NCBI RefSeq assembly: GCF_040954835.1
Contig: NC_090698.1
Span: forward strand, 3,842,501-3,906,500
Reading direction: 5' to 3'
Origin: Lepisosteus oculatus
Lineage: Eukaryota > Chordata > Actinopteri > Semionotiformes > Lepisosteidae
DNA length: 64,000 nucleotides
Shown here: in pieces, positions 56,601 to 59,554 of the stretch
Layout: each line of letters starts with the position of its first letter
Numbering within the stretch: the stretch's first letter is position 1
Program-made: the position numbers and the translations under genes
The notes under the pieces: model-generated
What the model saw: the letters and a program-made list of their open reading frames with translations, nothing else
Told to the model about the DNA's origin: nothing
Databases searched by the model: none

Positions 56601-59554
56601 TTTACTTTGATGTAGCTTTCAACAGAGAAACCATTAGTGTCCCCTGGTCTAGAATCATTTTAGGAAATAGGATTGAATTATTTAAAATTTCTGATAGTAT
56701 GCCTTTTTCTTTAGTGAAAATCGACAAGGACAAGCAGCTAGTGATCCTAGAGGAAGAATATGAAGTAAGTAGCATTTAACATGAGTTGATAGATTTCCAG
56801 ACTGCTGCTGTACGCATGCAGTTTTCCATTTCAAAGCTGTTACAGGTATAAGATATTTCTGACCTCTCTATACTGTCATGCTATTGTACAGCAAAGCGTA
56901 ACCTACCAAGGTAATGAACAGCTGCCCTTTGTAAATAATCAATGGCCTAGTAGGAGCTCCTCCTGGAGCTCAATGAGGTGAAACATTATAGTGCCTGGTC
57001 CTGACAGAATGAAACAGACAGGCAGGGATAAAAACAATGGCTCTTCACAATGAACAATATGAAGCCATTAAGTCTGATGTGAGTCAATGCACAAATGTAA
57101 GCAGTGAACACCACCTTTGTAATCTACAGTATGTGGATATCAGAAGGGACTCAGTCACTCATTGCTTACTGCTGCAAAGACCTTTCTTCATGCAAAATGG
57201 GGAAATTTGTATGTAGAATGTATAATCAATCACAAAAACCGGCACGCACTGCTTCTTTTGTTGCTTTGCAGATCATTATATTTGCCTTCTCAGCATTGCA
57301 CAACAACACCAAGACCTGTCTGTATTTCTTTCCTCCCCTTCACAGGACATTTCCCTAGACGATCTAAAGAATGAGCTTCCTGAACGGCAACCAAGATATC
57401 CTTCTGAATCGATCAGCGGAATCGATTTTGTAATCTTTTATCAAACAGAGAAGCTAATTGAGACCAACTTTGCATCTACAAAGACATGCTATGTGGCAGA
57501 GCAAGAGCAGGGCATCTACAGGAGCATTCTGAGTGAAGTATCCTAGCCACCTGGGCACCCAGTGCCCCCCCCTCCTGCCAAGCTGCGCCAACTGGCATTT
57601 AGCGGTCATAAAATGGGAGGGGATTACAAAAACAAAATGAACAGAGAATTCCAATGTTATTTTATAAAGTCCCATTTTAACGTCTGCACTTGGCTCACGG
57701 TAACCACAACATCGATTTTTGTTGGCCAACACTGCAGAGCAGGCAGGTTGTGCAGTGTTGTAGTTCTGAGCAACAGGCTGGAGCAGTCCAGTGACTTTTT
57801 CACTCCAGTGTCATATTAAATGACATCTGAAAAAGTCTCCGACAGCCCTGCAGTGGTCTGTCAGATCCTCACAATGAGTTCCACCTCCAGGACTCAAGTT
57901 AATGAACTACATACAATACGCAATTCATCTTCTCTGAGGGTTTCGTACGTACAGTTTGCCTGGAAAGGTTTAGACTATACTTAACAGCGTATCTAGTGCT
58001 GGGCTGAGTTCTGTTTGTGTTACAGACCTGTTCGCCTTTCTTTTCCTGTACGACCTTCAAGGTCATTGAGGTTGTCCTTCCTTGACTGGCTTCACATTCA
58101 TAGTCTACAGCTATAAGTATGTCCACGAAGACGGCAGGGTGTCCTACCCTTTGTGCTTCATTTTTTGCAGCCCTGTGGGTAAGTATTGTGCAACGGTAGC
58201 TGGTGTCTGGCACCAGGGTTCAAATGCAATCCAAATTAAACTAATATGCAAAAAATAAAGTCCCTATGGGAAAAACACTTAAGATCAAACACCACCTTTA
58301 TTCTCATAGATTAAGCAACATCTTGAGATGTTTACCTAAGGCATGCTGATACCAAAGACTGAGAGCCCATGAGGGTCCAGGGTGTTTTTTGTGCCGGCTT
58401 CAGCTCCCCCCTCACTGCTTATTAAAATTAAACTGAACTACCACTGTCTGCTACAAATGGGGCGGTAGCTTCCAATTCTGAGGAGCACCTCAAAACAGCT
58501 ATCCATTAGTTAAATACAGATGCAAAATCAGACCATTGAATACGGCAAAGAGGTTACAGTTTGTCCTAAGGAGGCAATGCTGTTCGGAATCATTGGGCAT
58601 CAGCGTCGCCGAACGCGGCTTCTTGATCACAGGAAGGCCTCACTCTTTCACAGCCGAGAGTCACTGGTGCACATGTTGCTGGATTCTGTGGGCATGAAGC
58701 TGTCAGCACAGTGGTGATGATGTGCTCTCTGACACCAGGCTGCAAGCCGGAGCAGCAGATGATGTACGCAGGAAGCAAGAACAGGCTGGTCCAAGCTGCG
58801 GAACTCACCAAGGTAATGACGCACAGCGGGACACTCAAACATTATCGCCGATTCAAAGCCTTGTCAAGGTCTCTGAACTGTGTCCTTGCACAGTATAAAT
58901 CAACCAGATGCATTTTGGATAACCAGGTGTCTGTCAAACACCTCCTCATCATGTTTTTCCAGCACACACATACATAGAACATGATCTGAATAAATTTGAT
59001 TCATTCAAAGGCATGTTCATTTCCACAGCAAAGCAAGAGGAACAAACTACTAAGCTGTGTAATGGTTTCAAAAGAGCCTTTGAGTACTAACAACTAAATA
59101 AGACAGGTTTACTAATGACTTGTGTTCTTAAATTGAGAATATTTGATAATGTGGTTACAATACAAAACAATAAAATCAATCTATAGTACATCCTTAAAAG
59201 ATGAGTCTAGAAAACTTTCCCCAAGATAAAACAGAACAAAGTATCTGTCATCTGGAGCCTCTACTACAGAGGTTCAGTGCTGCACTGTGAGTATAACTTG
59301 TTTAAATTCACCCAGAAAGACACATGGCTATAAAAAATACTTACAGAAGAATGTTTTTCTTAAAAAGCAGTCTCACGAAAGCTGAATCAACATAATACTT
59401 TTGAATAACCCTGACACTGAGACACTAAGGTTTACACAATCCAATGCTCAGACTTACCTCTCTCTCTGTCTGCACTGTGCAGGTCTTTGAGACCCGGAAC
59501 GCTGAAGACTTGACGGAGGAGTGGCTAAAAGCAAAGCTCGCCTTTTTCCGCTAA
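53665..59554 (+). CDS. GMFG: GMFG, glia maturation factor gamma (complete, 7 coding exons)
   Basis: GMFG is a small cytosolic ADF-homology protein that binds Arp2/3 complex, inhibits new actin branches and removes old ones; in mammals it is mainly a leukocyte protein. Exons 53665..53667, 55127..55223, 56715..56764, 57346..57395, 58096..58178, 58739..58812 and 59483..59554 sum to 429 nt, 142 residues plus stop, exactly the family length. The N-terminus [24 protein letters not shown] and SKNRLVQ favour gamma over beta. The block [14 protein letters not shown] and the C-terminus [20 protein letters not shown] are family hallmarks. Exon 1 encodes only Met. Intron 4 is a U12-type AT-AC intron; the others are GT-AG. 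The SAMD4B/PAF1 neighbourhood also supports GMFG. Confidence 0.97.
55127..55223 (+). CDS. GMFG: GMFG coding exon 2
   Basis: The acceptor CTCGTCTCCCACAG and donor GTAAGT bound 97 nt encoding [20 protein letters not shown], then [12 protein letters not shown], ending in phase 1. Confidence 0.97.
56715..56764 (+). CDS. GMFG: GMFG coding exon 3
   Basis: These 50 nt (acceptor TTTTTCTTTAG, donor GTAAGT) encode [17 protein letters not shown] with the phase-1 A from exon 2. Confidence 0.97.
57346..57395 (+). CDS. GMFG: GMFG coding exon 4
   Basis: The acceptor CCCCTTCACAG precedes [16 protein letters not shown] and the first two bases of the next Arg codon. The exon ends directly before ATATCCTT, a U12-type donor; no GT donor here keeps the frame. 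Confidence 0.95.
57396..58095 (+). other. GMFG: GMFG intron 4: U12-type AT-AC intron
   Basis: This 700-base intron starts ATATCCTTCT, matching the U12-dependent donor consensus ATATCCTT. It ends GGCTTCAC. A branch-site match TTCCTTGAC (58078-58086; consensus TTCCTTRAY) puts the branch adenosine 10 bases before the 3' end, as required in this class. Joining AG|A restores Arg and continues [13 protein letters not shown] exactly as in the family. Confidence 0.95.
58096..58178 (+). CDS. GMFG: GMFG coding exon 5
   Basis: These 83 nt encode [20 protein letters not shown], then FIFCSPV, with a GTAAGT donor in phase 1. KYVHEDG resembles gamma rather than the KYQHDDG of beta. Confidence 0.96.
58739..58812 (+). 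CDS. GMFG: GMFG coding exon 6
   Basis: These 74 nt encode [20 protein letters not shown], then AELTK, with acceptor GACACCAG and donor GTAATG. The region lies in the ADF-H face that contacts Arp2/3. Confidence 0.97.
59483..59554 (+). CDS. GMFG: GMFG coding exon 7 (C-terminus and stop)
   Basis: The acceptor CACTGTGCAG precedes [20 protein letters not shown], then FFR and TAA. The 3' UTR follows. Confidence 0.97.
   Translation, partial: VFETRNAEDLTEEWLKAKLAFFR

Follow-up and report, generated by a model that had tools for sequence, protein, structure and literature searches.

A predicted U12-type AT-AC intron in the GMFG-like gene of Lepisosteus oculatus and its counterpart in a second GMF gene

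Which spliceosome removes an intron that begins with AT and ends with AC is the question raised by an actin-regulator gene of the GMF family in the 64,000-nucleotide stretch of Lepisosteus oculatus DNA analysed here (the window), which lies on contig C3 of a 1.2-Gb genome. The intron spans positions 57396 to 58095 of the plus strand (700 nt), and an initial annotation had assigned it to the minor, U12-type class. Judged from the DNA, it is most probably a genuine AT-AC intron of the minor (U12-type) class, lying in the presumed GMFG orthologue of this vertebrate, a reading to which we give a probability of roughly 0.97. Its basis is the sequence itself, the reading frame, the matching intron of a paralogue, matches to the minor-spliceosome snRNAs and base complementarity judged by eye. 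The assignment is thus borne out by motifs placed at a junction that the protein fixes, by the paralogue on contig C8, by the snRNA matches and by what the accessible text of PMC7244321 gives for human GMFB.

The coding model on the plus strand consists of six exons that together encode 141 GMF residues (55127..55223, 56715..56764, 57346..57395, 58096..58178, 58739..58812 and 59483..59554). The exon upstream of the AT-AC intron (57346..57395) contributes 17 residues, the exon downstream (58096..58178) reads R-FIVYSYKY...CSPVG, the fifth exon ends with ...LTK, and the last coding part closes with TAA. A start Met was appended to the 141-residue model, the start-codon exon upstream not having been located. 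Among the five introns of this model, the one at 57396-58095 is AT-AC and the remaining four are GT-AG. The joined six-exon frame matches the cofilin/ADF domain (Pfam PF00241) over positions 1-125 of 125, with an E value of 7.7e-34, and this ADF-H domain, together with GMF-specific sequence, places the gene in GMF, within the cofilin/ADF superfamily. When the 43-residue peptide across the AT-AC junction was compared with the PDB, five of the six matches extended over all 43 residues (1v6f, 3l50, 4jd2, 1vkk and 1wfs; E 9.6e-21 to 2.1e-20), all of them chains named GMFB or GMFG, and the four alignments displayed were gapless; the sixth match was the GMF chain 5ynr (7.7e-8). This upholds the claim of the initial annotation that these ends give exactly the GMF protein across the junction. 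That the start-codon exon was not located would suit a non-functional copy of the gene, in which the intron signals are relics, but the joined frame is open, the domain is full-length and the ends of every intron in the model are intact, which makes such a copy exceedingly improbable.

The junction peptide scores about equally against the GMFB and GMFG chains of the PDB. Within the window, the GMF gene is flanked by frames that we take to be SAMD4-like and PAF1-like, with a Pfam family found for neither; SAMD4B and PAF1 are, we presume, the neighbours of GMFG in human synteny. The frame at 61970-62440 on the minus strand is long, acidic and serine-rich, has no Pfam family, and presumably resembles the C-terminal part of PAF1.

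The AT-AC intron lies in phase 2 within an Arg codon, which is divided AG/A: the upstream exon ends with ...CCAAG and the downstream exon starts with ATTCATAG. The donor context is AG/ATATCCTTCT, where ATATCCTTCT is the minor-class 5' splice site (57396..57405), and the 3' terminal AC occupies 58094..58095, the last C of the intron being 58095. The minor-class AT-AC consensus quoted in the accessible part of PMC2831892 comprises the donor ATATCCTT, the branch site TCCTTAAC and the acceptor AC. Positions +1 to +8 of the intron (57396-57403) match this donor at 8 of 8 bases, and near the 3' end the branch site TTCCTTGAC (58078..58086) fits TCCTTRAC; 10 nt of intron separate its branch A, at 58085, from the 3' splice site. 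The motifs, the ends and the spacing all agree with what the initial annotation had described. The 20 nt ahead of the terminal CAC are 75% pyrimidine, and since the GT-AG neighbour introns range from 55 to 90%, pyrimidine content cannot distinguish the AT-AC intron from them.

The class of an intron cannot be read from AT-AC ends alone, and the major spliceosome could in principle remove this one as it does some sodium-channel introns. Those U2-type AT-AC introns are said to have G at position +5 (PMC2831892, in the part accessible), whereas position +5 is C here, and donor and branch site both match the U12 motifs in full. We therefore give a U2-type AT-AC intron almost no weight.

The donor motif by itself proves nothing, since RTATCCTT occurs four times on the two strands of the window against 3.99 expected and is not unusual. 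TTCCTTRAC occurs once in total on the two strands (1.55 expected). From 150 simulated windows, 0.09 pairs with donor and 9-base branch site in the right arrangement are to be expected per 64 kb, and one was seen, at the protein junction. Relaxing the branch site to the 7-base CCTTRAC raises the expectation to 1.39 pairs, and the window still shows just that one pair; this count is close to chance, so that the weight comes from the position at the protein junction and not from the pairing itself. With the base composition of the window, donor and branch site would both fall at the protein-fixed junction by chance with a probability of about 7e-9 if the branch site has 9 bases, on which figure a chance match was rejected, and of about 8e-8 if it has the 7-base form found in the paralogue. 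A second ATATCCTTCTGAA string is present at 22582-22594 on the minus strand; within 5 kb of it no U12 branch site lies at the right distance, and it is likely a chance decoy.

The initial annotation had also stated that no nearby GT-AG pair keeps the frame. Taken literally this does not hold: a scan of in-frame junctions, with donors from 57346 to 57599 and acceptors from 57950 to 58169, returned 17 GT-AG, 97 GC-AG and 93 AT-AC pairs, and six of the 17 GT-AG pairs are free of stops. What stands is that none of the 17 restores the GMF protein. The AT-AC junction 57396/58095 aligns best, with a score of 187; the next is another AT-AC junction (173), and the best GC-AG junction, 57416/58103, reaches 169. 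No GT-AG pair is found among the 15 best-scoring junctions, so every GT-AG junction scores at most 144 against 187. The in-frame GT-AG pairs and the score of the GC-AG junction could be taken to mean that the major spliceosome removes a nearby GT-AG or GC-AG intron and that the U12-like motifs are coincidental. However, neither kind of junction restores the GMF sequence, the AT-AC motifs recur at the same codon in the C8 paralogue, and sliding the junction without altering the mRNA yields only AT-AC, TA-CA or AT-AT ends, never GT-AG. A major-class junction of this kind was rejected, its probability being close to nil.

The second GMF gene of the same genome, on contig C8, has an intron at C8:12825969-12826277 that reads AG/ATATCCTTTG...GCCCTTAACACTGATCAC/A and interrupts the identical codon in the identical phase 2. 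It shares with the GMFG-like intron the ATATCCTT donor, the CCTTRAC core and a branch A 10 nt from the 3' splice site, but differs in length (309 nt against 700 nt), and its branch site, GCCCTTAAC, agrees with TTCCTTRAC at only 7 of 9 positions. The comparison of homologous introns that the initial annotation had proposed thus finds U12 motifs conserved in the C8 paralogue and, according to the accessible text of PMC7244321, a minor intron in human GMFB. The interiors of the 700-nt and C8 introns have no significant similarity (best E 0.31); as they have diverged while the splice signals have been kept, these signals look selectively retained.

In the window, a gene that we take to be SAMD4-like lies at about 26.8-27.1 kb, about 28 kb from the GMFG-like gene. 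Contig C8 has a SAMD4-like copy as well, 71% identical over 85 residues and 0.83 Mb away from the second GMF gene, and both SAMD4-like matches found (2 of 2) sit on the two GMF-bearing contigs, C3 and C8. This fits a duplicated chromosomal segment, though order and distance differ. If C3 and C8 share such a segment, the AT-AC intron probably arose before the segment was duplicated, and it was probably already present before GMFB and GMFG were duplicated.

Other features of the window concern repeats. Within the intron, the 39-bp stretch 57504-57542 is 92% identical to C9 40507675-40507713, with neighbouring bases alignable by eye, and is possibly the remnant of an old dispersed repeat. A reverse-transcriptase-like fragment at 28028-28848 (RVT_1, 29.3 bits against a Pfam cut-off of 29.6; scanned over 28028-28636) is probably a decayed LINE. 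No Rfam structure was matched in 55000-60000.

An intron of this class would depend on the minor-spliceosome snRNAs, and the host genome carries sequence matches to all of U11, U12, U4atac and U6atac. Rfam matches above the cut-off were obtained at three places for U12, six for U6atac, one for U4atac and one for U11, counts that are lower bounds because only the best candidates were scored; in the control genomes, 0 of 14 matched for each of the four. Some of the six U6atac places are probably pseudogenes. All three U12 copies (L013, on the reverse strand, L014 and L015) contain GTAAGGAA, which is complementary to the branch site at TTCCTT and at the AC that ends it, so that pairing around a bulged purine appears possible by eye. 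Inspected in the same way, the best U6atac copy, read on its own strand, shows AAGGAG, and the U11 match begins with AAAAAGGG; either sequence can pair with UCCUU of the donor. The U12 copies L013 and L014 (C12:39128951-39129104 and C12:39145103-39145256) have equal scores and opposite orientations, with about 16 kb between them.

Motifs and homologues together make splicing by the minor spliceosome very probable. The ATATCCTT donor would be recognised by base pairing, first with U11 and afterwards with U6atac, and TTCCTTGAC by pairing with U12, which would leave a purine bulged for branching. Ligation of AG to A by the minor spliceosome would then complete the Arg residue in ERQP(R)FIVYSYKY, and the major spliceosome would remove the remaining introns of the GMFG-like gene. 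The AT-AC intron would be an inherited one, with splice signals maintained in both copies and interiors that have diverged. If it is kept in the message, the frame continues for 49 codons to a TAG at 57544-57546. Decay of a message is expected where a stop has junctions downstream of it, and the intron-retaining message, with two junctions downstream, would be expected to share this fate. A meaning in the 49-codon frame itself was rejected, as it has no Pfam family and 983 of 9115 sampled plus-strand positions have 48 open codons.

The initial annotation had stressed the rarity of AT-AC introns. They are indeed a minority, but the emphasis was too strong, AT-AC being a normal U12 subtype that accounts for 8-26% of U12-type introns in the vertebrates listed in Table 2 of PMC7367187, with 22% in zebrafish and 26% in human. 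The accessible part of PMC6717393 gives a human share of about 22%, and 770 minor introns in 714 human genes. In addition, AT-AC U12 introns turn into U2-type introns less often than GT-AG U12 introns do (PMC2831892, accessible text), which fits the retention of AT-AC in both GMF paralogues. One could further propose that AT-AC was kept in both since the vertebrate duplications because removal of the intron is a regulated switch; the accessible text of PMC3728624 proposes the unstable U6atac as a regulator of minor introns generally. We regard such a switch in the GMF genes as unlikely. If it existed, a shortage of U6atac would reduce the two actin-debranching GMF proteins in parallel, and the supply of minor spliceosome would be linked to the turnover of Arp2/3 branches.

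The GMFG-like AT-AC intron is real, yet nothing out of the ordinary: it is a long-standing minor intron of a well-known kind, and on its own it raises no new question. What is gained is a correct gene model, since annotation restricted to GT-AG is predicted to miscall this exon pair, and a pair of paralogues that can be added to the known U12-type AT-AC introns surviving gene duplication. Among the papers inspected we found no statement of the intron class of GMFG, although it may well be catalogued in U12DB, MIDB or IAOD; PMC9014605, PMC6412294 and PMC12428622 had no bearing on the matter, and in the accessible main text of PMC9501576 the string 'gmf' is absent.

The closest published counterpart is intron 4 of human GMFB, in the paralogous gene of another species, which PMC7244321, in its accessible part, calls a minor intron with the sites TCG/atatcc...ttctttaacttgagaaaaac/CTT. 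The two introns are alike in their AT-AC ends, their ATATCC donor and the branch site TTCTTTAAC, the human branch site being one base off TTCCTTRAC (PMC7244321, same part). In our count on the printed sites, 12 nt of intron come after the human branch A, against 10 in the GMFG-like gene. By our own reading, the printed exon ends fit a phase-2 split of the Arg codon in QPR/F, the phase itself not being printed in that part of the source. We found no feature that separates the GMFG-like intron from vertebrate U12-type AT-AC introns generally, with which it has donor, branch site and AC acceptor in common.
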